Shown: positions 18,184 to 58,838 of the stretch, piece by piece
Layout of the letters: each line of letters begins with the position of its first letter
Position numbering within the stretch: position 1 is the stretch's first letter
Virus record (IMG/VR): IMGVR_UViG_3300037222_000084
Coordinates: 1-64,000 of that record
Length of the DNA: 64,000 nucleotides
Reading direction: 5' to 3' (one strand)
From: a virus
The notes under the pieces: generated by a model
Databases searched by the model: none
What the model saw: the letters and a program-made list of their open reading frames with translations, nothing else
Told to the model about the DNA's origin: nothing
Translations under genes and position numbers: made by a program

Positions 18184-19502
18184 TGGTACACGAACTTCTT
18201 GGTACAGCAGAAGGTCTGTGGAAATCCTACGCAGAAATGATGAAAGCTAATCCCGTGGTCGGTGGAGCGATGACGCTCTATGGTATGGGCATTGCTACTT
18301 ATTTCTTCAAAGATATACCCATGAGGGTACTTGGTTACGTTAAAGGCCAGTTCATGGTTGGCGTGCGTATCAACAACAACGATAACCTGTTCAACGCAAT
18401 TACGTATTGGTTAGAGGAACAAGAAAGAGTTTTCCGTTGTAAAAACTTCGCAGCCAAATTGAACTACGGGACCGACAAACACACGGTAGCCATATCCGTG
18501 GGTTATGGAAACCATATCTTTTTCTACAAACGCAGAATCTTTTATTTGAGTCGCATTGAAAAGGATGTGAACAATACAACGGATACTAAAGAATCGCTGT
18601 ACATCACTACGTATGGTTGGTCTCCTGAAAGTATCAGACGTTTCCTTCAAGACGTTATCCCACAACCCGTAGGGGACCAAAACACGCATGTCCACGACTT
18701 CACTAACTATTGGCAGCGCAGCGCAGAGAAGGCCAAGCGCAACCTTAGCTCTGTGGTATTGACTGACTCAAACGAAAAGAAACTGCGAGACCATATCACA
18801 CAATATCTTGGCGATAAGGCGTGGTATCGCCAGCACAAAATCCCGTGGAGAACTGGGATTGCCTTAGAAGGACCTCCTGGTACTGGAAAGACTACGTTGG
18901 CTCTCGCTTTGTGTGGAGAGTTTAACTCACATCTGTTCATAGCCAACTTATCGCTGATGAGCGACGATAAGCTATTAGAGATGTTCAAGCAGTTGCCGCC
19001 GAAGGCCATCATCCTGATCGAGGACATTGACTCGTATTCGGTTGCTACATCGCGTAAACGGAGAATGATTAAAAAGAAGAACAACCAGAAATCCTTAAGC
19101 GGTGCAACGCCTAGTGCTCCAGATTCTGACGATGAACAGCCAGACTCTAAAGACTTCTCGTTTGGTAGTCTGAGTGGTCTACTTAACGCTATTGACGGAA
19201 TTTGCTCTACTGAGGACCGTATCCTAATAGCTACGACCAATCATATCGAAAGGTTAGACCCAGCCCTTATCAGAGAAGGACGGTTCGAGCTTATTCTCAA
19301 AATTGATTATTTGGATGACGAGACTGGCAGAAAGATGTTCGCTAAGTTCTATCCAGACTTCAAGATGCCCAAGGACTTTAAGATGAGGCCAGAGATTAGT
19401 CCAGCGAAGTTCCAGACTATGGCCATGGGCAACAAGAGCGATCCGCAAATGCTATTCGATTTTTGTAATGAATTCAAACGTTTACCAGAGGCAACCAAAT
19501 GA
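18183..19502 (+). CDS. BCS1-like AAA ATPase
   Basis: 439 aa. A likely membrane segment at about residues 27-42 is followed by a BCS1-N-like region, then the AAA module with Walker A GPPGTGKTT (about 230), Walker B IILIEDID (about 277), a lysine/serine-rich insertion, and TTNHIERLDPALIREGR. Mitochondrial BCS1 moves a folded Fe-S protein across a membrane. Bacterial and phage homologues are poorly understood. It overlaps the Thg1-like gene by 4 nt. Confidence 0.88.
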   Translation: MVHELLGTAEGLWKSYAEMMKANPVVGGAMTLYGMGIATYFFKDIPMRVLGYVKGQFMVGVRINNNDNLFNAITYWLEEQERVFRCKNFAAKLNYGTDKHTVAISVGYGNHIFFYKRRIFYLSRIEKDVNNTTDTKESLYITTYGWSPESIRRFLQDVIPQPVGDQNTHVHDFTNYWQRSAEKAKRNLSSVVLTDSNEKKLRDHITQYLGDKAWYRQHKIPWRTGIALEGPPGTGKTTLALALCGEFNSHLFIANLSLMSDDKLLEMFKQLPPKAIILIEDIDSYSVATSRKRRMIKKKNNQKSLSGATPSAPDSDDEQPDSKDFSFGSLSGLLNAIDGICSTEDRILIATTNHIERLDPALIREGRFELILKIDYLDDETGRKMFAKFYPDFKMPKDFKMRPEISPAKFQTMAMGNKSDPQMLFDFCNEFKRLPEATK

Positions 19503-20311
19503 AGAACGACGAATTAGGCTCACGAATGAAAGACAATTATGAGGACCGCACGCGGTTCTCTGTGCCACGACGCACCTATACGGTGATTCGATTGGACGGC
19601 AAATCGTTCCATACCTATACAAAGGGCTTTCAGCGGCCCTATGACCTCGGTCTCATGCGGGTGATGGATAATACTGCTATCGCTCTCTGTGAATCCATAC
19701 CAGGCTGTAAACTGGCCTTCGTGCAATCAGATGAGATTAGCTTAATCATTACCGACTTTGATACTATTCAGACCGATGCGTGGTTTGGCGGTAACATACA
19801 GAAGATGGCCTCTGTATCAGCATCAATAGCTACTGCACACTTCAACAACGGCATGTACCTGGACGAAGAGATCCTAGCCAACATGGATAAGATCGCCTAC
19901 TTCGATAGTAGGGTGTTTACTATTCCTGATCGCATAGAGGTCTGCAATTATCTGATTTGGCGTCAACAAGATACAACGCGCAATAGCATTCAGATGGGCG
20001 CTCAGTCCATGTATAGCCAAAAGCAATTACATGGAAAGAAAACTAATGAGCTACAGGAGATGATGTTCCAGAAAGGCCAGAATTGGGACAAGTACCCAGT
20101 GGGCTTTAAACGTGGCAGAATAATCCTCAAAGAGAAAAGTGAAATTGTAGCTATTCACGGTGCAGGCGGTTCTGGGGGTGATGGACCAAGAACGACGATG
20201 GTTACTCGCACTAGTTGGGGAGTATTCGAGCCTCCTATATTTACACAAGAACAAGAGTATTTGAAGTCACGCATCCCACAGATAGGAGAGACAGATGGCA
20301 CAAAAGTTTAA
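19499..20311 (+). CDS. Thg1-like 3'-5' nucleotidyltransferase
   Basis: 270 aa. RLDGKSFH (31-38) and QSDEIS (76-81) are the signature motifs of tRNA-His guanylyltransferase, a reverse-direction polymerase that adds a nucleotide to RNA 5' ends. The metal-binding Asp residues are present. Phage and bacterial Thg1-like proteins often repair truncated tRNA 5' ends instead of adding G-1. It sits next to a SpoU methyltransferase two genes on, which supports an RNA-processing role. Confidence 0.9.
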   Translation: MKNDELGSRMKDNYEDRTRFSVPRRTYTVIRLDGKSFHTYTKGFQRPYDLGLMRVMDNTAIALCESIPGCKLAFVQSDEISLIITDFDTIQTDAWFGGNIQKMASVSASIATAHFNNGMYLDEEILANMDKIAYFDSRVFTIPDRIEVCNYLIWRQQDTTRNSIQMGAQSMYSQKQLHGKKTNELQEMMFQKGQNWDKYPVGFKRGRIILKEKSEIVAIHGAGGSGGDGPRTTMVTRTSWGVFEPPIFTQEQEYLKSRIPQIGETDGTKV

Positions 20312-33047: not shown

Positions 33048-35207
33048 TTAGCTTGCTGCCGATTGTTGAACTTGCGAGATGTTAATGCTGATCGGGATGA
33101 AGTAGATCGCAGTTGCAAGTTTGATTTCGACACTAACATCCATTTCTGGTGCCAGAATGGTGATTTTACCGTTCTTCCAGCCAAGTGGAGCGTCATCGCT
33201 AGCTGCGATAAGCTTCAGTTTCTTGTAACCTTCCATCTTTTGAGCCAAGTAGCTCAAACCAGTCGCAGCGTCTACATCAGCCAAAGACTGACCGACGAAA
33301 GCGGCTTGGAAGCTTGCAGCAAGGTCAAGAGCCAGAATGTCCGAGCAGTAAACCGCTTGGATGCTGTTGTACACGAAATTGGTGTCAAAACCGTAAGTAG
33401 TTTGATCGCTAACCCACAGACTTCCTGCGGTCGAAGCGGTCAAGATCAACATACCAGAAGACAGCGCGTCTTCAACGTCACCAGGACTTCCCGAATCAAA
33501 TCCGGTAGGATCTGTGTAGGAAATAATGTTAGCCAACTTGTTACAGATAGACTTATAGAATCCACCGGCTTGCATACCAGCTGCGATTGTAGCCGTATAC
33601 CAGGGTTGGAACTTAGTGATAACACCAACCGAGTTGACTTCTGTCGATCCTTGGAAAGCCAAGGAACAACGATAGCTGGCGAGACCCAGAGCCGCAGCTT
33701 TGCAATTCGCATACGTGTCTTGCATAGACAATACGCAGATGCGGTTGCGTTTGAGCTTAACAGTGCTGTACGCGATGCAATGGTTCTTGACCAATGCGTT
33801 GGTAGCTGCGATAGTGTAGGTAGAGCCAGGATCGGTCAAACCAGCAGTAATGTCCTTCGATGCATCTTGCGAGAACAAAGGAACGATGATGTTTACTTGA
33901 ACACCTGCAACTTGTTGCAGAGCATTCACGATGTCGATGGCCAGAGTTGGTCCTCTTGCTCCGCCAGACAGGAATGCCTGACCAGCCATAGGAAGTGGCA
34001 GACCTGCTGCGACAGCAGCGTTGAAAGCTAATGCAGACGAAGTGCCCAAAACTGATTGAAAAGTGTTAGCAGCATCTTTGATGCGTCCAGGCATTGCGCT
34101 TGCAGCAGTAGAAGCGATACCTACAGCGGTAACGGCATCCAGTGCAGCGGTAGACTGTTGTTGAGCAGAAGGCGCTGCCTGAGCAGTGTAGCCTGGCTGA
34201 GCATTCAGATAAGCGGCCAAAATACCGATGGTAGCATAGTGAGTAAGATCTACACTCAACGCTGCACCGATTCCACCAGCGACAGTTGTCGTCAGCATAC
34301 CAGTAGTCTGGTTGATTGTAATAGTTGCAGTCGTACCCTGATACCCAATATTGAGAGCGATATCTGGAACAACGTTAAGAGTCTCGTTTACGCCAGCAGA
34401 AGGATTGTTGATCTGGACTTCAACCTGTGCTTCATCAGAAGAAGCAGTCAGAGCAGCAACCAAACCAAGAGCGGCCAAGTCACCAGGAGTAGAGTCGATC
34501 AATTCTAATGCTTGTCCGTAACCATTGGCAAATGGAGTAGCGTCAACCACAGTCAACTGAATGCTAGTCGTTGGAGCAGCTGGATTAGCAGATGCTACGA
34601 TAGTTGCCGGTAACAGGCCGTTAAGCTCAGCTACAAGGTGAGGAACAGTGTCGTGCTGTGTAGGAGTCGCGCTAAGAGTGATAACCGTAGCAGCACCGCC
34701 GTTTAAGCGGAAGCTGAAAGACTGACCATTGAGCGGAGCGCCGAATGCAGGAATTGGAGAACCAAGAACGTTGGGAGCAACTTCTGCTTGAAGAGTGCTG
34801 ATTTGATAAGAATAACCGTTTCCAGCAACTCCAGAATTCTGGAATACCAAACTACCGTATCCACCAGCGATAGCAGCAGATGCCTGAGCGCTCGTGTTAG
34901 TTTTAACGATATAGATAAGATTTGCAGATCCTTTGATGTTTGTATCGTTAGAAGGAGCGGTCAGCGCGTCGAAAGCATCTACGATTGGTCCACTCGTATA
35001 GATGTTTTGAACCTTGGCCAGTTGATCTGGAGTAAAAGTGTTGTTTTTCAACGCGACTTGCTGATAGCTAGGACCGCCATCGGCTTCACCCATGATTACG
35101 ATAATGCCGGATTGACCTAAACCTACGGGTTGCGATTGCACCGTGATGTTAGGATATGCTCCAGGAATATTTGTATTTAATAAACTTGTAACTACTCGTA
35201 GAGACAT
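33048..35207 (-). CDS. Tail sheath protein
   Basis: 719 aa after AAGGAGAGC. The N-terminus PGAYPNITVQSQPVGLG, the repeated beta-rich inserted domains in the middle and the C-terminal half with Rossmann-like strands (VQVNIIVPLFS, ALSSGMLILT, VSVEIKLATAIYFIPISI) match contractile tail sheath proteins. Length is near that of T4 gp18 (about 660). This marks the phage as a myovirus. Confidence 0.85.
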   Translation of the reverse strand: MSLRVVTSLLNTNIPGAYPNITVQSQPVGLGQSGIIVIMGEADGGPSYQQVALKNNTFTPDQLAKVQNIYTSGPIVDAFDALTAPSNDTNIKGSANLIYIVKTNTSAQASAAIAGGYGSLVFQNSGVAGNGYSYQISTLQAEVAPNVLGSPIPAFGAPLNGQSFSFRLNGGAATVITLSATPTQHDTVPHLVAELNGLLPATIVASANPAAPTTSIQLTVVDATPFANGYGQALELIDSTPGDLAALGLVAALTASSDEAQVEVQINNPSAGVNETLNVVPDIALNIGYQGTTATITINQTTGMLTTTVAGGIGAALSVDLTHYATIGILAAYLNAQPGYTAQAAPSAQQQSTAALDAVTAVGIASTAASAMPGRIKDAANTFQSVLGTSSALAFNAAVAAGLPLPMAGQAFLSGGARGPTLAIDIVNALQQVAGVQVNIIVPLFSQDASKDITAGLTDPGSTYTIAATNALVKNHCIAYSTVKLKRNRICVLSMQDTYANCKAAALGLASYRCSLAFQGSTEVNSVGVITKFQPWYTATIAAGMQAGGFYKSICNKLANIISYTDPTGFDSGSPGDVEDALSSGMLILTASTAGSLWVSDQTTYGFDTNFVYNSIQAVYCSDILALDLAASFQAAFVGQSLADVDAATGLSYLAQKMEGYKKLKLIAASDDAPLGWKNGKITILAPEMDVSVEIKLATAIYFIPISINISQVQQSAAS

Positions 35208-36428: not shown

Positions 36429-37433
36429 TTAGTCTTCACTGTTCTCGTCTATGGTGGTCCAGGTCTCTTCTGTGGCGTCTATAATAGGCGGCGTGTCAAG
36501 ATTGCTTAAGATCTTGATTCCACTAGTGATTTCGCAACAATCGACACCCTTGATTATGGACGATTCGATGAATCTGCGTGGTAGCTTGATCCAGCTATTT
36601 TCTACTTGACCTGACAAAACGATCATTCTAAGATATGACAGTTCGCCACCGTCCCCACCTATATAATTGGGGTCCATCAGGATCTCGCCGCTACTGATAG
36701 AGCTTTGGGCAAATCCGTTACCCTCAAGGAGACTTTCGCGGTATCTGAGGATTGCATACATTACAATGGAGTGCAGCCAAATCAAAGTCTGTACGTCACC
36801 ATGGGTTTGGCAGGTTATCGTGTATGAGTCCTGAAAGAAAGCATGCTCAACTCTAGCCTCGTAGAAAGGAAACTGAGGTATTACGGCAAGTTCGGTCGCA
36901 TCGACGCCCAATCCTGGCTCGATAAAAAACATACCAGCAGATACGGCCAAAATAGGGTATCCATTGCCGTTTGCAGGATTTACAAGTACCATTCCAGGAG
37001 TAACCACTTCAAAACCAGCAGTGTTAGGGTCTATGCCGATTTCACCGGACGCTTGATCGTAGCTAGTAGGAACGAAAGGTTTTACTACGAAAGCAATCGG
37101 TTTGCCAATTTCCAAAGGCAAGAGCATTTTCTTGACCGTAGATAGGTCGGCCATGTGCTTCATCTCTGGTATCTCTGGGGTAGGCCCAGGAGTAATAGTT
37201 ACACAAGGCAACTCATCTTTGTCGTTGCGAGGACGCATGTAGACGTTGATGTTGTTGTTCATGAACCATTCTTTAGCAGCATCTATTTGTTTTTGGCCGT
37301 ACTTGTCGGAAATGTAAGGAATGGCCTTGAGGCTATCAAAGACGTGATCTAACAACCATGCGTTTTTGCGCATCTCATCCAGGCCTAGATCGACCATAGT
37401 TTTTATAATTACGTCACCTTGAAAGATGCCCAT
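36429..37433 (-). CDS. Virion structural protein, 334 aa
   Basis: Order in the operon (after a gp10-like gene, before the sheath) suggests a neck or head-tail connector. The N-terminus is helical, and the rest beta-rich with CCEITSGIKIL near the end. No named family. TAATG-type overlap with the upstream gene. Confidence 0.55.
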   Translation of the reverse strand: MGIFQGDVIIKTMVDLGLDEMRKNAWLLDHVFDSLKAIPYISDKYGQKQIDAAKEWFMNNNINVYMRPRNDKDELPCVTITPGPTPEIPEMKHMADLSTVKKMLLPLEIGKPIAFVVKPFVPTSYDQASGEIGIDPNTAGFEVVTPGMVLVNPANGNGYPILAVSAGMFFIEPGLGVDATELAVIPQFPFYEARVEHAFFQDSYTITCQTHGDVQTLIWLHSIVMYAILRYRESLLEGNGFAQSSISSGEILMDPNYIGGDGGELSYLRMIVLSGQVENSWIKLPRRFIESSIIKGVDCCEITSGIKILSNLDTPPIIDATEETWTTIDENSED

Positions 37434-38230
37434 TATTTACCGTTCCATTTGTCTACGATGCCAGGGAGGATTTTCTCTTCCCATTGGCGTATCGCTTCTT
37501 CCATGGCTTTATCCATGTATTTTTTAGCTTTCAGGCCAGGGTGTAGCCATTTGCCATCACTTGCAGGACCAGCAGAAACTGTGCGAAACGTAAGAATGTC
37601 TCTTCGAACGTTTCCAGTATTCTTGTCGATCTGCTGATAAATAGACAGCCCTTGTAGCCGTGGCGTGTTACCTTTGCCAGGTATTTTCATGCCAATGTTG
37701 CCACCCATAGTTCCGTCTTTTCTTTGATCTCTGAGGTTAACTCCCCATTTTAGATCGTGCAGTTTGCCAAGCTTAGGACTACCATCTTGATTATATTCAA
37801 TATTCTTATATGGAATTTTTTCACTTTTCAGTTTTCTTTTAATAGCATCAACCAAAAGCATCGTAGACGGTTGCGTTTGGGTTGGTTTTGTATCATACTT
37901 GAAAGGTATAACCCTGTGGGTTTTGCCTTGCAGTAAATCTGGCTTCATATCGTGGGCAGTGAGTCCTTCTTCTATCCACATAGCTTTCTCATCAAGGGTA
38001 ATTACGTACAGGCCTGGAGCAGAATCGTCTACGTCAGACAATGCTTCCATGTAGATATGCTGAGTCGAATTAAGTTTGTCGTCTCCACGCTGAGCTTCCA
38101 TGGCAATCTGAGCACGAGTCAAAGTAGCAAGCTCGCGCATGGCACTATTTATGTCTGCCTCTACTTCTTTGGCAAACTCTTGAAATTGCGCTGCTATAGC
38201 ATCAGCGTTTGCGCTAAGCTTTAGGCTCAC
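37433..38230 (-). CDS. HK97 gp10-like neck protein
   Basis: 265 aa with a GTG start. The N-terminal helices (FAKEVEADINSAMRELATLTRAQ) and the C-terminal GKWLHPGLKAKKYMDKAMEEAI match the pattern of gp10-type head-tail joining proteins, which often end with W-x-HPG-x-x-A. About twice the usual length, with a basic insertion in between. Confidence 0.55.
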   Translation of the reverse strand: MSLKLSANADAIAAQFQEFAKEVEADINSAMRELATLTRAQIAMEAQRGDDKLNSTQHIYMEALSDVDDSAPGLYVITLDEKAMWIEEGLTAHDMKPDLLQGKTHRVIPFKYDTKPTQTQPSTMLLVDAIKRKLKSEKIPYKNIEYNQDGSPKLGKLHDLKWGVNLRDQRKDGTMGGNIGMKIPGKGNTPRLQGLSIYQQIDKNTGNVRRDILTFRTVSAGPASDGKWLHPGLKAKKYMDKAMEEAIRQWEEKILPGIVDKWNGK

Positions 38231-38390
38231 GAGGCACCTTCTGAGGGTTTTCTTCTTTAATTGGCAATGGCTTCACTGGTACTCCAGTAGGACTTTGCAC
38301 CTTGCCGTCGCGCATAGTGATCCACCGAGTTTTCTTAGTAATCGGATCAATCACTTTCTTTTGACCTTTTTCATTAACAGCACCTTCCAT
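38214..38390 (-). CDS. Small ORF or frameshift extension, 58 aa
   Basis: From ATG 38390 to TAG at 38214-38216. It begins MEGAVNEKGQKKVIDP and ends NPQKVPREPKA. No ribosome site precedes the ATG. The same frame stays open and protein-like back through 38391-38455 (GKLPTSQTTQHVARTPYM), so it may be the C-terminal extension of the upstream protein, reached by a -1 shift at GGGG (38459-38462). Confidence 0.45.
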   Translation of the reverse strand: MEGAVNEKGQKKVIDPITKKTRWITMRDGKVQSPTGVPVKPLPIKEENPQKVPREPKA

Positions 38391-38452: not shown

Positions 38453-40450
38453 CTATCGCCCCTGAAGCTTTGGGTCGGCACCACTATCTGGATGGGCAGG
38501 ATACAAATTGTTGTAGTCTGGATTTCCTCCAGCTGCTTCAGTCTGAGCTTGCGGATCGTTGGTTTGATCTTCTGGCATTCCACCAGCAGGTTGTCCTTCT
38601 AGGACGCCTTCTTCAGGAGATAAAATGTTTGGAGATTCTTCTACTACGCCAGACGGCTGAGCAGCTTGGTCTTGGTCTAACCCAAGAAGCTTGGCCATTT
38701 CTATCATCGCTTTAAGCATAGCGATAGAAGACGCGTATAATTGAGGTGCTTCTAATTTAGCACGCTCAAGTATCATCTTACAGCCTTTGAATCCTTCCAA
38801 AGCTTCGCCAACCATAGCAACAACTTTTTCTCGTTTGATGCTGTCGGCATGACTGTCCAACCCTTGTTGCAGCACAGACGTAACATCTGGAGCACCATCT
38901 GGTTGTTCGCCAAGTCCCATATCAGTGGGAGTATTCTGGCTATAGCTTTCTGGACGGCTAACGTTGCCTTCCATGTTAGTACCGCCAGGCAGGTCTGCGT
39001 CGTCAGCTTGACCTTCAGCGCGTAATGGAACTTGGTCAGCTCCAAGTGCGTCGATTTCATTTGTAATGCTTTCTATAGAATCGCTATTTTCTGGAGTACT
39101 GGTAGTTCCAACAGGAGGAGCAAACGGTTCTTGATATTCTTGAGCAGCAGGCCCGCCTTGTGAGTTTTCAAGAATGATGTTCTGATTGGATTTTGAATCA
39201 GTAGGTGCGGCCAATTTCGAGGGTTGCGAAGAAATAGCGGCAGGCTTGTCCATTCCTGGACGAGCAAGATCCTGACCGGCATAGTTCTGGCTATCTTGAG
39301 TGGTAGGCAGTAATTCAGTAGAGGGATCGTTTGGACTTATGTTTTGATCGTCTCCGCCCATAGACTGAGCAGCTACTTGACAATAAGGACAATCCTGTTC
39401 GTGACCTTCAGCATTAGGATCATGCGAGCCCATTTCCTGGCAATAAGGACAATCGTCAGTGTGACCTTCAGCATTAGGATCGTGATTCATTACTGCGCAA
39501 TAAGGACAATCATCGGCATGTCCTTCGGCATTAGGATCGTGCATTTGTACACAATAAGGACAGCTTTCGTCTTGAATGCCCTGAGCACTCAATTCTTGAC
39601 AATAAGGACAGTCGTGCTGTTCAGGAGCGGGCGCGGCCTCAACGGTAACATCTTCGTCTTTAGTTAGATTCGGTTTTTGTTGTTTCAGAGCGTGCATGGT
39701 ATCATGATGGCGAGACATAGCCGTAGCTTTGTCACCAGCACGGGCATTTAGCCCAGCAGATGAAGCGCCAAGCAATTTTTTACTATGAGTAGATTGATCT
39801 TTGTGATGATCGCTAGTAAAACCGGATAAACTGTCGTGCGTGCCCTTAGCTCTTGTTCCTGGAACCTTTTCGCCAGGTTTATCCATGTGCTGCGGCATCT
39901 TATGTTGATCTGGTCTAGGAGATGCCTTAGCCAGTTCGTCTTTAGTGATTGATTTGTCTTTGCCGTCCATAACCGTATCCTGTCCTTCAGGCCGCAAATA
40001 AGCGTCACCCTGTTTCTTTTCTTGTTCAGAAGCTGTCCCGTCTTCTAGTTTCAATTGAACTTGCTGAATTTCCTGTTCAATCCTGGGATCGTAGATGACT
40101 ACTTGGTTCTTACCTCTGAATTTTGCCACTATTAGAGACTTGCCTGCCTCAGATAAAGTTTTACCTATACCTACAGACATAGTAAGCCTAGTAGCAAAAT
40201 GATAATCCGTTCTCAACTGTTCAATATGATCTAGCGCTTCATGAGGTAAATGGAAGGTCCCTTCGTCACCGCCGCCAGATATAATTCCGCCGTTGTGCTC
40301 CTGAGCCCATTTTTTGACTATCTCGTGGCCAAGATTTATTCTTTCAGAGACTTCGCTCAGGGCAGCTGGATCATTGGACAATATAGCACGACCAACAAGC
40401 CTTCCAGCATTGTCACCGTCGTATGCTAATATCCACTGAAAATTATCCAC
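38453..40450 (-). CDS. GGDEF/mCpol-like palm protein with CPYC repeats
   Basis: 665 aa with a GTG start after AGAGGGAAGC. Residues 5-122 form a palm-like nucleotidyl cyclase/polymerase fold: YDGDNAGR (10-17), SGGGDEG (58-64), TMSVGIG (90-96) and AKFRGKNQVVIYDP (109-122). Both metal-ligand motifs are intact. The spacing resembles the minimal CRISPR polymerase/GGDEF superfamily. Residues about 277-360 carry five CPYC knuckles, three preceded by HDPNAEGH. The rest is disordered, Gln/Asp/Pro-rich, with a late helix (about 540-590). It sits between neck and capsid-side genes, so the product is probably in the virion or its assembly. Activity is inferred. Confidence 0.7.
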   Translation of the reverse strand: MDNFQWILAYDGDNAGRLVGRAILSNDPAALSEVSERINLGHEIVKKWAQEHNGGIISGGGDEGTFHLPHEALDHIEQLRTDYHFATRLTMSVGIGKTLSEAGKSLIVAKFRGKNQVVIYDPRIEQEIQQVQLKLEDGTASEQEKKQGDAYLRPEGQDTVMDGKDKSITKDELAKASPRPDQHKMPQHMDKPGEKVPGTRAKGTHDSLSGFTSDHHKDQSTHSKKLLGASSAGLNARAGDKATAMSRHHDTMHALKQQKPNLTKDEDVTVEAAPAPEQHDCPYCQELSAQGIQDESCPYCVQMHDPNAEGHADDCPYCAVMNHDPNAEGHTDDCPYCQEMGSHDPNAEGHEQDCPYCQVAAQSMGGDDQNISPNDPSTELLPTTQDSQNYAGQDLARPGMDKPAAISSQPSKLAAPTDSKSNQNIILENSQGGPAAQEYQEPFAPPVGTTSTPENSDSIESITNEIDALGADQVPLRAEGQADDADLPGGTNMEGNVSRPESYSQNTPTDMGLGEQPDGAPDVTSVLQQGLDSHADSIKREKVVAMVGEALEGFKGCKMILERAKLEAPQLYASSIAMLKAMIEMAKLLGLDQDQAAQPSGVVEESPNILSPEEGVLEGQPAGGMPEDQTNDPQAQTEAAGGNPDYNNLYPAHPDSGADPKLQGR

Positions 40451-40763
40451 GCTTCCCTCTGAGTACTTCTAACAACATCTCAATATTTTCTGGGTCCCAG
40501 CCTTTACCGAATCGAACCTTCACGCCATCTTCTGATTTTGTAAGGTATACTTTACTATTCATATCGCTGCCCATACAAACACAACCAGAGTATGCTTCAT
40601 TTTTGAAGATACTTTGACCACAGTCTGGACACGACACTTGGTCGTTCTTAGAAAGAGATACCTGATACTCTTTCTTATGTAACTTATGCTTTCTACCTTC
40701 CAAAAATTCATTAAGAGGTGAACTCTTTTTGGATTTATCTGGACGGTCTAATGCAGACGACAT
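40443..40763 (-). CDS. Zinc-ribbon protein, 106 aa
   Basis: Basic N-terminus, then CPDCGQSIF with CVCMG about 18 residues later as a zinc ribbon, and YLTKSEDGVKV. Its stop overlaps the GTG start of the palm-domain gene, so the two are translationally coupled and may work together. Confidence 0.65.
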   Translation of the reverse strand: MSSALDRPDKSKKSSPLNEFLEGRKHKLHKKEYQVSLSKNDQVSCPDCGQSIFKNEAYSGCVCMGSDMNSKVYLTKSEDGVKVRFGKGWDPENIEMLLEVLRGKRG

Positions 40764-42976: not shown

Positions 42977-44041
42977 TTATTTTTCCTTGTCATAGGCATC
43001 TTTGATTTTTTTAACATGCCAATGTTCGTCTATGTTCTTTTTTTCTTTCTGAGCACGGTATGTACCCTTTACACCTTCAAGCCATGCGTACCCGATTTTG
43101 TTTGGATTTTGGCCAAAATGGTGTTCTAATCGAGCCAAGTGTTTCTGCGCTACAGTGTCTTCTAATCCAGGGTTGTCGTGCATGTACCTACGCATATCGT
43201 CACCGCGAAGCGCCATGCCCTTAGCATATTTGGCTTTTAGGTCCGTGTTCATGTGGATAGTATCGCGTATAGTGGAAGGCATTAGGGCGTACTTTCCATA
43301 TGCGCTCTCGCCTGTGTGCATTCCACCAGCTGGCTTATGGTTGGTCATCTTGCCGTTTTGACTTTCTACGGTTGCGATAGTATTGAGCATGCGCTGACTG
43401 CTATACGAAGGCTGATGCTGTTGAATACTGGCCGGTTCTCTAGGAGGCGAAGCATCTTTGATTGTAGGGCTAGACTGCATAGCGCCCATTACGCCAATTG
43501 CTGCGGCAACGTGTTTGATGCCTTTGTCTAATTTTTCAGATTTTTCAAACGTGTGAACAGGGTTATTTGCGCCGTGTTCAAGAGTCAGAGGACCAAACTC
43601 GATATCGTCGGCGGTTACGCCGTTTTCTTTAAGGTCATCGTAGAGCACCTTGTCGATGGTTACATGGGTCATGAAATTTTTGTAAACATTACCTACGTGT
43701 CCGTAGTGATCGTAAAGAGCCTTGTATTTTGGAGGCAAACCTTCTATCTTGAGCATGTAGTAGTCTAGCTTAGACACTTCCGCCGTAAAGATGATTGGTT
43801 TGAACGTCAAATCCTTAGGATCTGGAGAGCAAATATCATGCTCCTTGACGTACTCTTTCATTTCATCTAAATCAAATTCTTTGGGATTACCAAATATTTT
43901 GAGAGACATGTGCAGAGGAATATCGTCAACAAGGGTAGCGCGACCTTTGATTTTTACGCAGAACAGTACGTCACAGCCTTTTTTGGCTTGTTCCTTATAA
44001 CTGCTGTGTACTCCGACGCCACGCTTCTCTGCCGCGCCCAT
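42977..44041 (-). CDS. 2H phosphoesterase-lytic transglycosylase fusion
   Basis: 354 aa. Residues 25-165 resemble the 2H phosphoesterase fold, with H44-M-S46 in IPLHMSLKIF and H126-V-T128 in FMTHVTID as the paired HxS/T motifs. A linker with FEKSEKLDKG follows. Residues 215-350 look like a lytic transglycosylase/lysozyme domain, with E226 in ATVESQNG as the probable catalytic acid and ESAYGKYALMPSTI after it. The lysozyme part should open peptidoglycan at entry. The 2H part could cleave 2',3'-cyclic or 2'-5' linked nucleotides. Both assignments are by motif. Confidence 0.65.
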   Translation of the reverse strand: MGAAEKRGVGVHSSYKEQAKKGCDVLFCVKIKGRATLVDDIPLHMSLKIFGNPKEFDLDEMKEYVKEHDICSPDPKDLTFKPIIFTAEVSKLDYYMLKIEGLPPKYKALYDHYGHVGNVYKNFMTHVTIDKVLYDDLKENGVTADDIEFGPLTLEHGANNPVHTFEKSEKLDKGIKHVAAAIGVMGAMQSSPTIKDASPPREPASIQQHQPSYSSQRMLNTIATVESQNGKMTNHKPAGGMHTGESAYGKYALMPSTIRDTIHMNTDLKAKYAKGMALRGDDMRRYMHDNPGLEDTVAQKHLARLEHHFGQNPNKIGYAWLEGVKGTYRAQKEKKNIDEHWHVKKIKDAYDKEK

Positions 44042-47839: not shown

Positions 47840-48535
47840 TTACTCTTCTGCTAAATAGCAGATGCTGCCATCTTGCACCACTTCTCTGGTAGCTCGAATA
47901 GGACGCTTGCTGGCTGGGTAATACATTCGATCTAAGCACGAAGCGTTAACAAAAGTGGTAGGACCAACGTATTCGATCCCACGGGCTTCGTGAATATGAC
48001 CAAAAACATGTAATTTCACCTGTGTTTTCAATATCTTATCCATCAAATCTTGGCAACCAGCACGCTCTTTTGGAGTACCGTCAACATAGGAAACAACGTC
48101 TAAGAATCCAGCTGGAGGACCATGCGTAATGAGCAATTCGGTATCATCTGGAATCATGTCCCAGTGACGTTTAATATCGGGTCCACGATCACGGTTAAAG
48201 GCCCAGCTATGAAACCAAGGTTGGACTGGCGAGCCCCAAATCTTGACGCCTTCTAGGTCTACCCCAGAATCGTTCAAAAGAATAATGTTGCGATCTTGGC
48301 ATGCTTCAGCGAGCAACGCAGGAGTGCGCTCAAAACCCCAATCGTGGTTTCCAGGGACTAGTATGGTATAGTCATAGTCCTGTTTTGCATACCAGTCTAA
48401 AAATGTAAGAATTTCAACTTCACTACCACGAAGACTGACATCTCCAGAGTGAATCAAAATATTGCCACCGTCACACTTGAATCTTTCGTGCTGATTATGA
48501 GTATCTGATAGTAGATCTATGATTAATTTTTCCAT
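47840..48535 (-). CDS. Calcineurin-like metallophosphoesterase
   Basis: 231 aa. All dinuclear metal motifs are visible: LLSDTHNQH (D10, H12), HSGDVS, VPGNHDW, LLITHGPP and HVFGHIHEARG. The length and the GSPVQPW insertion resemble the MPPED-like phosphodiesterase group. Substrate unknown; possibly a nucleotide or nucleic acid. Located between the capsid gene and the ice-binding-like gene. Confidence 0.9.
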   Translation of the reverse strand: MEKLIIDLLSDTHNQHERFKCDGGNILIHSGDVSLRGSEVEILTFLDWYAKQDYDYTILVPGNHDWGFERTPALLAEACQDRNIILLNDSGVDLEGVKIWGSPVQPWFHSWAFNRDRGPDIKRHWDMIPDDTELLITHGPPAGFLDVVSYVDGTPKERAGCQDLMDKILKTQVKLHVFGHIHEARGIEYVGPTTFVNASCLDRMYYPASKRPIRATREVVQDGSICYLAEE

Positions 48536-48615: not shown

Positions 48616-50016
48616 TTATCCGCCGCCAGGAATCAATTGGCCAGTGATGTTCTCAAGCAACACGTTTTTGCGTGGCTGATACATTGCCAAAGACAAGAAG
48701 CGGAAGTGAGCTTCGGGCAAGCTCAGGTCGTTTACTGCAAGTTTCAGCTTGCTGTAAGGAGCCAATTGAGCGAATCCCATGGTGTTAGCTTGCACCAAGA
48801 AACCAGTGATCGAACCAGGCTGACGATTGCCCAAGTCTGTGAAGACAGGGTTTCCGTTGTTCTGTGCGATACGACCGATAAACTTTGCAGAAGCAGCTGA
48901 ACCATTAGCAGCTGAACGATACACGTTGTAGTACTGAGCATTAGCAGCAGCAGTGATAGTCACTGTCAACTTGTCACCAGCAGCAGCAGCAACACCAGCA
49001 GAAGCGGCAGATGGGAAGCTTTCGCCGCGCATCGAAACCGACGTTACGTAGTATTGATACGTACCAGCAGCTAACAACGAACCAGCAGCACCGGCATCAG
49101 CAACAGCCGGAGCAGCGGGAGCGGCTGGCGAACCAGTCCGTGCGCGTGCAGGGCGTGTTTTGCCAGACAAGAAGCGCGAAGCCTCAAGGCTAACAATTGC
49201 AGACGAGGTCCACTGAGTGCGCAAATGAGCACCAGTAGCTTCTTGAGCCGAACCTGCTAACATAATGCGCTCTTTTGCGTGCGCGATTTTGTTATAAGCC
49301 GACAAGCTGATAGGATCTAAGATCAAACGATCAGCAGCGCCCATGTTCATTGCAGAACGAACAGAGCTATCTTCGATAATACTTTGGGTAAGAGTTCCAC
49401 CGACTGAAAGAACTACAGTTTGGTCTGAGCCAAATTCTGCGAACATCAAGTCCTGTGTGTTGGACTGAGCGTCCGACTGACGAACTTGTTGGTCAACACC
49501 AATCATGTTCGGAACTTTTGCTACGGCGAGAGGATTGCCGTCAAAAACGCCTACGTTAGAGAAATCTGACTGTCCACGGAACGAGTCAAACTCAATGTCA
49601 CCGGCCAATTTCATGGCAGCGTCAGCAGCAGCGCGATCTTCAGCTTTTACACCGTCGAATGCACCGATCATGTTGGACGCGACAGTCACCCGACGAGTCG
49701 TGCTGTAGTATGCCATGGGCACAACTGCACGAACGTAGTTAGACGTGTCTTCTTCACCCACGCCACCTTCGAATTGGGCGGACCCACCGAAAATACCGTA
49801 GTCAAGTTGACGGTTGAATTGATGCAATTGGCTCTTAACATCTTTCGATGGGAGCATTTTTTGCAATTTGATATGGGAATCGTCGAATGTGACGTTCTGC
49901 ATCACGGGCGACATATCCTCGATCATTAAAGCTGCGCCCTGAACTAAGCGATCTGGAGATGCGAGGTACGAACCTGCTTCCAAAGCTTTCATAAGGGACT
50001 GAAGTTGTTCAATCAT
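48616..50016 (-). CDS. Major capsid protein
   Basis: 466 aa after AAAGGAGAAC. The N-terminal region (KALEAGSYLASPDRLVQGAA, then MIEDMSPVMQNVTFDDSHI) and the helix/strand pattern with RLILDPISLSAYNK and PYSKLKLAVNDLSLPEAHFRF fit HK97-fold capsid proteins of large myoviruses. Residues about 290-400 form an inserted Ig/FnIII-like beta domain (GTYQYYVTSVSMRGESFPS, YYNVYRSA). Position next to the scaffold-like and protease-like genes supports the call. Confidence 0.75.
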   Translation of the reverse strand: MIEQLQSLMKALEAGSYLASPDRLVQGAALMIEDMSPVMQNVTFDDSHIKLQKMLPSKDVKSQLHQFNRQLDYGIFGGSAQFEGGVGEEDTSNYVRAVVPMAYYSTTRRVTVASNMIGAFDGVKAEDRAAADAAMKLAGDIEFDSFRGQSDFSNVGVFDGNPLAVAKVPNMIGVDQQVRQSDAQSNTQDLMFAEFGSDQTVVLSVGGTLTQSIIEDSSVRSAMNMGAADRLILDPISLSAYNKIAHAKERIMLAGSAQEATGAHLRTQWTSSAIVSLEASRFLSGKTRPARARTGSPAAPAAPAVADAGAAGSLLAAGTYQYYVTSVSMRGESFPSAASAGVAAAAGDKLTVTITAAANAQYYNVYRSAANGSAASAKFIGRIAQNNGNPVFTDLGNRQPGSITGFLVQANTMGFAQLAPYSKLKLAVNDLSLPEAHFRFLSLAMYQPRKNVLLENITGQLIPGGG

Positions 50017-55401: not shown

Positions 55402-55479
55402 TTAGTAGGTAAGAACTCCTGCCGATATGATAGCGCAGGAAAACATTCAAATGGCATAGGATATTTGCCAGGAGATACA

Positions 55480-56271
55480 ATGATCTATTTAAACGGTAAT
55501 CCCGTTAATACCACTCTCTTCCCTGACAACACCAGTCAAGTATGGAAGATACCCACCCTCGAAATTCCAGACACCAATTGGGTCCACGTAAAATGGGACT
55601 TTTCGCATGAAGGCGAGTTTATCCAATTGGCCCAGCTTAAACAATTGCTCGATAAACGCGGTTTTCGTGCCGCATTGCGTCTTAGCTACCTGCCCTATGG
55701 CCGTCAAGACAAAGAAGTTTCAAACGACGCCACTTTCGCGCTTCGCACTTTCAACAAATACATAGACTTTATGGATTGGGACGAAATCATCGTAATGGAC
55801 CCGCATAGCTCCGTAATCATGGACTATGTTCGTAATGTTCGGGCCGTATATCCTATCCAAGAACTCGAAAAGACACTAGCGCATACGGTTTCTACTTTGG
55901 TCTGCTATCCCGACAAAGGCGCACTCGAAAAGTACACTAAAGTGTATCGCAGCATCGTTGAAGACGAATTCATCTATGGTGAAAAGGTCCGCGATCAATC
56001 TACTGGAAATATTACAAGTTATCAATTAATCGGCAACCCCAAAGGCCACAGTGTCCTCATTGTTGATGACATTTGCGACGGCGGTGCCACATTCAAGCTT
56101 CTTGCCAAAGACCTATTGGCAGCAGGAGCTACGGAGGTAAATCTTTTTGTAACCCATGGAATTTTCTCACGAGGTCTGAGAACGCTCCAAGAATCAGGAA
56201 TTAAACGCATATTTACTCAAGATGGCGAAGCTAGTACCCATCAAGATCAAATCACTTATAGGAGATTATAA
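55480..56271 (+). CDS. PRPP synthetase-like (Prs or Adps)
   Basis: 263 aa from ATG 55480 after CCAGGAGATAC. YLPYGRQDKEV (about 69-79), MDPHS and the PRPP-binding loop VLIVDDICDGGATF (about 192-205) identify the ribose-phosphate pyrophosphokinase family. It is some 50 aa shorter than host Prs. Partnered with the NAMPT-like gene, it would supply PRPP for nicotinamide salvage. In the described NARP1 phage pathway the homologue instead pyrophosphorylates ADP-ribose. Sequence alone does not tell which. Confidence 0.88.
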   Translation: MIYLNGNPVNTTLFPDNTSQVWKIPTLEIPDTNWVHVKWDFSHEGEFIQLAQLKQLLDKRGFRAALRLSYLPYGRQDKEVSNDATFALRTFNKYIDFMDWDEIIVMDPHSSVIMDYVRNVRAVYPIQELEKTLAHTVSTLVCYPDKGALEKYTKVYRSIVEDEFIYGEKVRDQSTGNITSYQLIGNPKGHSVLIVDDICDGGATFKLLAKDLLAAGATEVNLFVTHGIFSRGLRTLQESGIKRIFTQDGEASTHQDQITYRRL

Positions 56272-56272
56272 C

Positions 56273-57763
56273 GTGAAAAATTTAATGAAAAGCCTACCGA
56301 CTACAGTCCTCTGCGATTTCTATAAAATTGCACACCGTGCAATGTACCCAACTGGAACAGAAGTGGTTTATTCCACCTGGACACCGCGAGCCAGTCGCAT
56401 GAAAGGCATAGATCAAGTTGTTGCCTTCGGCATGCAAGCCTTCATCAAGACCTACTTGATTGATTTCTTTGACACAAACTTCTTTGGTCGAGAAAAGTCC
56501 GTTGTAGTCGCTGAATACAAACGATTGATTTCAGCCACTCTTGGAGACCCCAATCCAGAGACCAAACACATCGAAGACCTTCACGATCTTGGCTTTTTGC
56601 CACTTTCAGTTAAAGCTCTCCCAGAAGGAACTCTTGTTCCGCTGCGCGTACCGATGATGACCCTCCAAAACACAGACAAACGGTTTTTCTGGTTAACAAA
56701 CTTCGTAGAATCTTTGGCTTCTTGCGAGTTGTGGCAACCCACTACCAGCGCGACTATTGCGCGTGAGTACCGCAAGATCATGGACAAAGCAGCAATGGAG
56801 ACGGTTGGCGACACTGGATTCGTAATGTTCCAAGGTCACGATTTCTCTATGCGCGGCATGTCTTCTCTGCAATCCGCAGTTTCTTCTGGCATGGGCCACC
56901 TGCTGTCATTCGTTGGCACAGACACTATTCCAGCAATTGTTGGAGCAGAAGTGCTCTACGGCGCAGATGTGACGAAGGAACTCGTTGGAACATCCATTCC
57001 AGCCACAGAACACTCAATCCAATGCACTTACGGCGATGACCTGAAATACTTGGAGCGCATGCTCTCAGTGGTTCACCCAAATGGCTTCGTTTCCATCGTT
57101 TCTGATGGTTATGACTTTTGGGAAGTTATTCGCAGCGTGCTCCCTGCTCTCAAATCCAAAATCATGGCTCGTAGCGGTGGACCCGTTGGAGACCGTGTGG
57201 TTATTCGCCCTGACTCTGGCGACCCTGTGCTGATAGTTTGCGGCGATCCAGATGCAACTCCTGGAAGCCTTGAGTATAAAGGCGCTGTAGAGGCTCTATG
57301 GGACATTTTCGGCGGGACCGAATCCTCTAAAGGATACAAAGTCCTCGATTCCCACATTGGCCTGATCTATGGTGACGCTATTACTCTCCGTCGTTGTGAA
57401 GAAATTTCCGAACGGCTGAAAGCCAAAGGTTTCGCCTCGATCAACTGCGTGTACGGCATTGGTAGCTACACCTATCAGTACAACACCCGTGACACCTTCG
57501 GATTTGCTCTTAAGAGCACATTAGCCGTGATAAACGGCGATGAAAAGCAGATTTTCAAAGATCCGAAAACTGATAATGGCATCAAGAAGTCACAGAAAGG
57601 CCGTGTGGTCGTTCTTAAGGATGGCAATTCACTCAAGTTCGTCGATGGCCTTGGACTCAACGATGTCGTAGAAGGCGACCTGTTGACAGAAGTGTTCCGC
57701 GACGGTAAACTGTTGGTGGATCAAAAATTCTCCGAAATCAGAGCACGGCTCGCAGGACAGTAA
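56273..57763 (+). CDS. nadV: Nicotinamide phosphoribosyltransferase-like (NadV or Namat)
   Basis: 496 aa with a GTG start after TAGGAG; a downstream ATG at 56285 is an alternative. CDFYKIAHRAMYP at the N-terminus, FQGHDFSMRGMSS, GTSIPATEHS, RPDSGDPV (about 311) and YGIGSYTYQ are NAMPT signatures, and the length fits. It converts nicotinamide plus PRPP to NMN, or in NARP1 joins nicotinamide to ADP-ribose pyrophosphate to give NAD+. It starts 1 nt after the Prs-like stop. Confidence 0.93.
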   Translation: MKNLMKSLPTTVLCDFYKIAHRAMYPTGTEVVYSTWTPRASRMKGIDQVVAFGMQAFIKTYLIDFFDTNFFGREKSVVVAEYKRLISATLGDPNPETKHIEDLHDLGFLPLSVKALPEGTLVPLRVPMMTLQNTDKRFFWLTNFVESLASCELWQPTTSATIAREYRKIMDKAAMETVGDTGFVMFQGHDFSMRGMSSLQSAVSSGMGHLLSFVGTDTIPAIVGAEVLYGADVTKELVGTSIPATEHSIQCTYGDDLKYLERMLSVVHPNGFVSIVSDGYDFWEVIRSVLPALKSKIMARSGGPVGDRVVIRPDSGDPVLIVCGDPDATPGSLEYKGAVEALWDIFGGTESSKGYKVLDSHIGLIYGDAITLRRCEEISERLKAKGFASINCVYGIGSYTYQYNTRDTFGFALKSTLAVINGDEKQIFKDPKTDNGIKKSQKGRVVVLKDGNSLKFVDGLGLNDVVEGDLLTEVFRDGKLLVDQKFSEIRARLAGQ

Positions 57764-58251
57764 TGAAAACCGATCAATTCGCATTTTTCTATGGAGGAGC
57801 CTTAAGTCAATGGGCTCCTTCCCCATTCACTCTGGACGAAGTGGAGTATTCTACTGCTGAACAGTATATGATGGCTATGAAGGCTGATTATTTTAATGAT
57901 CAAGATACCAAAGCCAAAATAATGGCCACTGATAGTCCTTCTGAGCAGAAGTCACTAGGCAGGATGGTTAAGAATTTCAATGCAGAAGCTTGGAATGCTG
58001 TTTCTAGGGGATTCGTGTACAAGGCGAACATTGCCAAATTCACTCAAAACGACTGGTGTATGAAGGAACTGGAACGAACCGGAGACCTAGAAATCGTTGA
58101 GGCTAGTCCGTATGACCGAATCTGGGGCATTGGCCTTGGAACTAGCGACAAACGAGCACTTGACAAGACCCAGTGGCTTGGTACAAACTGGTTAGGTGAG
58201 ACTTTGATGAAAGTACGGAAGGACCTACGTGAGCAAAACAGTCGAGTGTGA
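57763..58251 (+). CDS. NADAR (YbiA-like) family protein
   Basis: 162 aa, TAATG overlap with the NAMPT-like gene. FAFFYGGALSQWAPSPFTL, EYSTAEQYMMAMKADYF, KFTQN and PYDRIWGIGLG are the order and motifs of the YbiA/NADAR fold. Members remove N-glycosidic groups from riboflavin intermediates, and several reverse ADP-ribosylation of guanine in DNA. Its place among NAD/ADP-ribose genes favours the ADP-ribose role. Confidence 0.88.
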   Translation: MKTDQFAFFYGGALSQWAPSPFTLDEVEYSTAEQYMMAMKADYFNDQDTKAKIMATDSPSEQKSLGRMVKNFNAEAWNAVSRGFVYKANIAKFTQNDWCMKELERTGDLEIVEASPYDRIWGIGLGTSDKRALDKTQWLGTNWLGETLMKVRKDLREQNSRV

Positions 58252-58423
58252 TTGTATGATGTGCCAAAAACCACTAGAAAACTACGATCCACAGATGTGC
58301 TGTGGCGGGTTCGATTGCGGGTGTATGGGCCTTCCTACTAACCCTCCTATTTGTTCTGAAGAATGCTGGGATGCGCTTATTAAAAGGAATAGTGATGGGC
58401 AAAGTAACGACAATAAAGGGTAA
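58229..58423 (+). CDS. Small Cys-rich protein
   Basis: 64 aa with a GTG start inside the NADAR 3' end. It has ten Cys residues, including CDCMMC and CCGGFDCGC, so one or two zinc sites are likely. It overlaps both neighbours and belongs to the NAD/ADP-ribose operon by position. Confidence 0.5.
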   Translation: MSKTVECDCMMCQKPLENYDPQMCCGGFDCGCMGLPTNPPICSEECWDALIKRNSDGQSNDNKG

Positions 58424-58838
58424 TCTCTTTGATGCTCCAGAAGGCTCCATAATCATTCATGCGTGCAATACTAAGGGCGTATGGGGATCTGGCATAGCCA
58501 GGGAGTTCGCCAAACGGTTCCCTAAGGCCCGTGACATTTACGCTCAAACTTGTCAAGAACAAGGACCGTCTCTTATTGGGAAATGTCTTCTAATTCCAGC
58601 TGGGAGCCACGTTATTGGCTGCTTATTCACTTCAAAAAACTATGGACAATTCGTAGATTCTCCTGCTAAGATATTAACAGCAACCAGATTGGCCATTGCT
58701 CATTTGATTCTTCAAAATGAGAGCAAGTTGCCCATGCATATGTGCAAGATAAATGCTGGATTGTTCAACGTTCCTTGGCCTAAAACCAAGGCAATATTGA
58801 AAGACGCCGATGTTGAATTTGTAGTTTACGATTTTTAG
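58395..58838 (+). CDS. Macro domain protein
   Basis: 147 aa. ATG 58395 is chosen with AAAAGGA upstream; the frame extends back to 58302 only through the previous gene. GKVTTIKGNLFDAPEG and HACNTKGVWGSGIA (22-35) form the ADP-ribose pocket, and INAGLFNVPW the second loop. Closest in style to the Poa1/ALC1-like macro group that hydrolyses ADP-ribose 1''-phosphate or removes ADP-ribose from proteins or DNA. Confidence 0.88.
   Translation: MGKVTTIKGNLFDAPEGSIIIHACNTKGVWGSGIAREFAKRFPKARDIYAQTCQEQGPSLIGKCLLIPAGSHVIGCLFTSKNYGQFVDSPAKILTATRLAIAHLILQNESKLPMHMCKINAGLFNVPWPKTKAILKDADVEFVVYDF

Follow-up and report, generated by a model that had tools for sequence, protein, structure and literature searches.

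The window analysed here is the first 64,000 nucleotides of an 86.9-kb virus contig (IMG/VR record IMGVR_UViG_3300037222_000084) and carries, on its minus strand, a 665-residue open reading frame that runs from a GTG start overlapping the 3' part of the gene before it (40450) down to 38453 (Table 1). The first-pass annotation had recognised in this interval the motifs of a nucleotide-cyclase-like palm, an observation that holds with one correction, namely that the gene lies on the minus strand, the plus strand across 38453–40450 being interrupted by stop codons throughout. The four motifs, YDGDNAGR (residues 10–17), SGGGDEG (58–64), TMSVGIG (90–96) and AKFRGKN (109–115), occur in the order originally described. 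Placement of the gene in a virion operon was likewise borne out, as PHROG matches identified a major head protein, a head maturation protease, a tail sheath and a virion structural protein around it; a tail-fibre-like protein is also encoded nearby. The zinc-ribbon gene immediately upstream lacks approximately 200 N-terminal residues found in relatives.

Table 1 Features of the mCpol locus and its surroundings, in window coordinates
Feature	Position	Strand	Details
mCpol protein	38453..40450	-	665 aa; palm, disordered linker, CPYC array, disordered linker, conserved helical domain, tail
mCpol palm domain (aa 8-120)	40091..40429	-	PF18182 E 2.1e-15; AF2 pLDDT 94.6; Foldseek OptS TM 0.82/0.88
First metal motif YDGDN (D11, D13)	40409..40423	-	D11 aligned with OptS D6 (PMC12657218)
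Second metal motif GGGDE (D62)	40262..40276	-	D62 aligned with OptS D57 (PMC12657218)
Five CPYC motifs, putative zinc knuckles	39380..39610	-	Some with CxxC..H..H spacing; variable in family
Conserved helical domain (aa 511-592)	38675..38920	-	Kept in 53/53 relatives, palm-less ones included
58-aa ORF	38214..38390	-	Matches the C-terminal tail of the mCpol protein of several relatives (KGQKKVIDPxTGKxRWI...SPTGVPVK)
Downstream virion-operon gene	37433..38230	-	Weak HK97-gp10-like
Tail sheath	33048..35207	-	phrog_279 E 1.1e-22
Upstream zinc-ribbon gene, short form	40443..40763	-	Overlaps mCpol start; ~310-330 aa in relatives
2H phosphoesterase fused to transglycosylase-like domain	42977..44041	-	Upstream in mCpol operon
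SLT/lysozyme-like domain	42989..43405	-	Pfam SLT in 10/20 family members, best E 2.4e-6
2H phosphodiesterase domain	43544..44026	-	Two catalytic His (HMSL, HVTI) invariant in 25 relatives
Major head protein	48616..50016	-	phrog_752 E 9.6e-46

The only cultured relative found was Myxococcus phage Mx1, which shares the neighbouring genes and their order, and searches of plasmids and cultured phages added nothing further. Relatives in IMG/VR reach 150–177 kb, and one lies inside a bog Deltaproteobacteria MAG, a weak hint that this is the host group. No Rfam family matched between 36 and 46 kb of the window.

Several other features of the window and its relatives were recorded. The tripeptide KSE occurs 12 times in the virion-operon proteins between 27078 and 54700, against 2.5 expected, and once in all other ORFs; in most relatives its count lies above all shuffles, and it may be a protease or targeting motif. 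As a packaging tag of the mCpol protein it was discarded, since the operon is enriched in KSE but the mCpol proteins are not. Small homing-endonuclease-like ORFs lie between virion-operon genes at several loci (for example, L001:644-1162 and L007:10638-11201), one of them directly before the mCpol gene in L001. A calcineurin-like metallophosphoesterase gene adjoins the major head protein (47840–48535, minus strand), apparently in several relatives too, and could encode a second phosphodiesterase of the operon. On the plus strand, a Thg1-like tRNA-His guanylyltransferase (19499–20311), another palm-fold enzyme, is encoded beside a BCS1-like AAA ATPase, and consecutive genes at 55465–58838 encode PRPP-synthetase-like, nicotinamide phosphoribosyltransferase (NAMPT), NADAR and macro-domain proteins. 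We take this last row to resemble the NAD+-rebuilding type of counter-defence (NARP1), and with such NAD-repair-type genes the phage is probably rich in counter-defence.

Fold and active site of the palm

The N-terminal region of the protein matched the Pfam mCpol family (PF18182) far beyond chance, with an E-value of 9.2e-13 and a score of 49 bits over profile positions 2–114 of 114, the cut-off being 26.4. The NCBIfam mCpol model scored 39.5 bits, slightly below its cut-off of 40, the second palm of Cas10 reached E 2.5e-5, under its own cut-off, and a PHROG search with the mCpol protein returned no match. When the protein was compared with the PDB using phmmer, the only solid matches were depositions of the Panoptes synthase OptS (9nwn/9mnr; E 3e-8 and 7e-8). 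The AlphaFold2 model of the palm, built from seven phage sequences, had a pLDDT of 94.6, and Foldseek placed six OptS chains at the top of its ranking (TM approximately 0.82 by query and 0.88 by target), followed by GGDEF domains, GTP cyclohydrolase III and Cas10. In BFVD, one viral protein, itself uncharacterised, showed comparable fold similarity. The predicted fold is therefore an OptS-like palm, a point on which the first-pass annotation had made its proposal depend, and both its description as an mCpol/GGDEF-like palm with intact metal motifs and the suggested kinship with bacterial defence cyclases stand, Panoptes OptS being nearest by sequence as well as by fold.

Four residues have been studied experimentally in KpOptS, the metal-site residues D6 and D57 and the base-contacting residues S30 and N34 (PMC12657218). 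In the phmmer alignment these correspond to D11, D62, S35 and N39 of the window protein, so that all four are conserved. In a set of 36 palms (median pairwise identity 40%), the most conserved columns include D13, D62, K110, K114 and S35. N39, the counterpart of the OptS residue involved in base choice, is not constant among relatives.

Conservation, decay and loss of the palm

Loci were fetched from the tail sheath (80) and from a neighbouring gene (66), and removal of near-duplicates left 53 relatives, each encoding the helical domain at the syntenic position. In this large family of myophages the gene keeps its place by synteny, and it was present as a single copy in 15 records, the largest included, 14 of which matched mCpol, the exception being a palm-deleted record. 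A palm was found in 50 of the 53 relatives and retained all three metal-site aspartates in 38. DxD was combined with GGD[EQ] in 33 of the 50 palms (a few with a GD[EQ] variant) and with [GA]SD in five, while D11 was replaced by asparagine in 10. Two palms were degenerate, that of Mx1 lacking D11 and D62 and that of L160 lacking D11 and D13. The D11N palms together with these two suggest that several lineages may live without catalysis.

In three closely related loci (L187, the same record as L036; L190; and L195, the same record as L024) the palm is cleanly absent, and the genes begin directly at the linker with the remaining protein retained. The core role of the protein thus does not depend on the palm module, a behaviour more in keeping with an enzyme than with a structural part. 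Nonsynonymous divergence (dN) was lower in the palm than in the remaining sequence in 13 of the 14 pairs for which it was computed, D11N lineages included. The exceptional pair, L157/L163, has palms that are 43% identical and sheaths that are 83–84% identical, suggesting exchange or fast change; more broadly, the palm of L157 is 40–43% identical to those of L163, L165 and L156, with sheaths at 76–84%, and palms may have been exchanged between phages. Its deletion and decay in some relatives thus mark the palm as dispensable and probably enzymatic, a module carried by a virion-operon protein that is itself conserved.

The same relatives bear on the five CPYC zinc knuckles to which the palm had been reported to be fused. 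These motifs are present in the window protein (residues 281, 297, 315, 334 and 354; array 281–357), but they are not a constant partner of the palm, as CxxC motifs number from zero to six among the 53 relatives and approximately half have none. Because of this variation the motifs are not essential to the design, and a zinc-knuckle array as a necessary part of the mechanism was ruled out.

A 2H phosphodiesterase in the same operon

Upstream in the operon lies a gene whose product joins a 2H domain to an SLT-like domain. Two HxS/T motifs on a modelled 2H fold (AF2 pLDDT 92.5) place it in the 2H phosphoesterase superfamily, and 25 relatives with 22–84% identity to the window domain keep both H-x-S/T histidines. 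The best Foldseek match was a poxviral 2',3'-cGAMP phosphodiesterase (E 8e-4, with a moderate TM of 0.47), followed by a viral 2'-5'-oligoadenylate phosphodiesterase, LigT, AKAP18 and the FBB1 Acb1, while its sequence profile found archaeal LigT-like proteins (E 0.004). The partner had no match above any family cut-off, and membership of Acb1 was rejected, since Pfam Acb1 matched weakly in three of the 25 relatives (best E 0.006) and the window domain was without a match. Fusion to an SLT-like domain suggests, by analogy with internal virion lysozymes, a role at entry. In Mx1, the operon slot of the 2H gene holds instead a 1479-residue protein with GNAT, ART-PolyVal and NUDIX domains.

A canonical palm was encoded in the same operon in all 25 relatives with the 2H gene. 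The slot was covered in 40 loci placed on the family tree, 24 with 2H and 16 without (L200, with 2H and a canonical palm, was off the tree); the canonical palm was present in 24/24 of the former and absent in 15/16 of the latter (Fisher p 4e-10, counted by tips). When only D11, D13 and D62 were considered, 5/16 loci without 2H had an intact site (p 2e-6). The tree, however, offers approximately three independent contrasts, of which two were concordant, none opposed and one neutral (sign test p 0.5), and an old split together with one palm-deletion lineage, itself lacking 2H, lies behind the pattern, which we regard as suggestive. No 2H domain occurs anywhere in a 170.6-kb record of the palm-deletion lineage. 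The perfect link seen in the first 23 records was weakened by the tree and by a wider sample that brought in L173, a clear exception with a canonical palm and no 2H, and a 'GSD' clade that has the metal residues and no 2H. In L156, L157, L163 and L165 the 2H slot has either undergone rearrangement or falls outside the fragment.

Relation to described systems

The palm shares domain family, fold and a single palm of approximately 120 residues with Panoptes OptS (PDB 9mnr, 9pd0, 9nwn; PMC12657218, PMC12657230). OptS, however, belongs to a two-gene bacterial defence operon, whereas the phage gene lies in a virion operon, its palm is fused to a long disordered and helical protein, and it has the classic GGDE motif that OptS lacks. 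A search of 15 phage records for OptE/Cap15 (PF18153) gave no match, with the control also silent, and the neighbours of mCpol are virion genes. Cas10 palms and GGDEF diguanylate cyclases have the palm fold and a GGDE-type second motif in common with the phage palm, but their fold and sequence scores are weaker than those of OptS, and no CRISPR parts or GGDEF-type regulatory domain were recognised in the phage case. Similarly, Acb1 and viral 2H phosphodiesterases (PF23474; PDB 7t27, 9ciw, 4ye2) share two HxS/T motifs and a 2H-like fold with the partner, which differs in being fused to an SLT-like domain and encoded in a virion operon.

The view of the first-pass annotation that no system of this form has been described is nearly right. 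Descriptions of mCpol in the literature consulted are solely bacterial and archaeal, and no phage mCpol was found there, but polyvalent phage proteins, encoded in virion operons, predicted to be injected and to interfere with nucleotide signalling, were proposed in 2017 with GGDEF and 2H domains among those noted (Iyer, Burroughs and Aravind, PMC5512222). The Mx1 protein in the 2H slot matches this type. The mCpol protein has the virion-gene location and one recognised enzymatic domain, where polyvalent proteins have several; in addition, the cyclase here is mCpol rather than GGDEF, it and the 2H enzyme are encoded by two different genes of the operon, and mCpol is near-core in a whole phage family, with lineages in which the palm has decayed or been lost. 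Both the mCpol family and the broader notion that signalling enzymes are injected were already known or predicted, and what is new is a near-core virion-operon mCpol with a 2H partner.

Possible roles of the mCpol protein

Our leading interpretation, to which we attach about even confidence, is an active cyclic-dinucleotide synthase on a virion-operon protein, probably virion-associated, that acts on host nucleotide signalling together with the 2H enzyme. The conserved catalytic set argues that palm activity is enzymatic in most lineages, and the likeness to OptS predicts a cyclic dinucleotide made from ATP, with or without GTP. Since the 2H superfamily cuts 2'-5' and cyclic-nucleotide bonds, manipulation of nucleotide signals would be the most economical joint role. 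The catalysis, product, packaging and target that we infer would be as follows. The helical and C-terminal part, with the disordered arms, would provide the constant virion-operon function, to which the palm would add an N-terminal cyclase activity. The window palm is most likely catalytically competent; two palms would pair, their D11/D13/D62 metal site would hold two NTPs (probably ATP), and the product would be a Panoptes-type cyclic dinucleotide with a 2'-5' linkage. The protein is probably made late, into or onto the particle, and during infection signal nucleotides would be both supplied and, by the 2H phosphodiesterase, removed, thereby blunting cyclic-nucleotide immunity. One observation against counter-defence is that nearly every family member has the palm, whereas typical counter-defence genes are patchy, as NAMPT is with its presence in 8/15 records.

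That near-universal, single-copy and syntenic occurrence would suit a core function better than an arms-race accessory, and the product of an active cyclase could instead serve the phage itself, as a timing or assembly cue or as the ligand of a phage protein. We consider this unlikely, as three relatives manage without a palm and no Cap15-type receptor matched in the 15 phage records, in a search that had no positive control. Equally unlikely, in our judgement, is a structural or NTP-sensing relic, in which an old cyclase fold persists as a component of the virion or neck whose catalysis is secondary or has been lost. The position among head–tail genes, the degenerate sites of Mx1 and L160 and the D11N palms, some still evolving under constraint, are consistent with such a part, but the residues for catalysis and phosphate binding occupy some of the most conserved columns, and the palm can be deleted while the remaining protein is kept.

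A more specific form of immune interference would be counter-counter-defence, in which the 2H enzyme destroys CBASS-type signals and the phage mCpol keeps Panoptes-like guards quiet. Under this scheme, loss of CBASS signals to the 2H enzyme would trip the guards, the mCpol protein would supply their inhibitory dinucleotide (2',3'-c-di-AMP or a relative) so that the death effector stays silent, and phages that had lost 2H would no longer need the cyclase and would lose or inactivate it. Its appeal is that Panoptes is tripped by Acb-type enzymes (PMC12657230). The scheme is nonetheless improbable, since the palm is near-core and Panoptes rare, and among 58 genomes in the phylum of the relative-bearing MAG mCpol was found solely in that MAG, where both matches look phage-borne; for that group of hosts, these genomes do not favour an anti-Panoptes role. 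A different nucleotidyl enzyme, modifying RNA ends or nucleotides and working with 2H in RNA repair, is very improbable. RNA-end phosphodiesterases do belong to the 2H superfamily (PMC5512222), GTP cyclohydrolase III is also palm-fold and the window encodes a Thg1-like palm enzyme at another locus, but the closest match of the protein in both sequence and fold is OptS, which is dedicated to cyclic-dinucleotide synthesis. The 2H gene, the lineage with a cleanly deleted palm and the palms that have degenerated, all of which had escaped the first-pass annotation, bear most directly on function.

Enzymes of the mCpol family are known as rare bacterial immune synthases. If a whole phage lineage keeps such an enzyme, active site included, among the genes that build its particle, then phages would not only degrade or sponge immune-type second messengers but also produce them. 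With its natural palm variants (canonical, D11N, dead and palm-deleted) and the 2H partner, the family already contains the comparisons that make the idea directly testable. Should the predicted activity prove true, these viruses would tamper with the alarm chemistry of their hosts from within their own particle-building programme.
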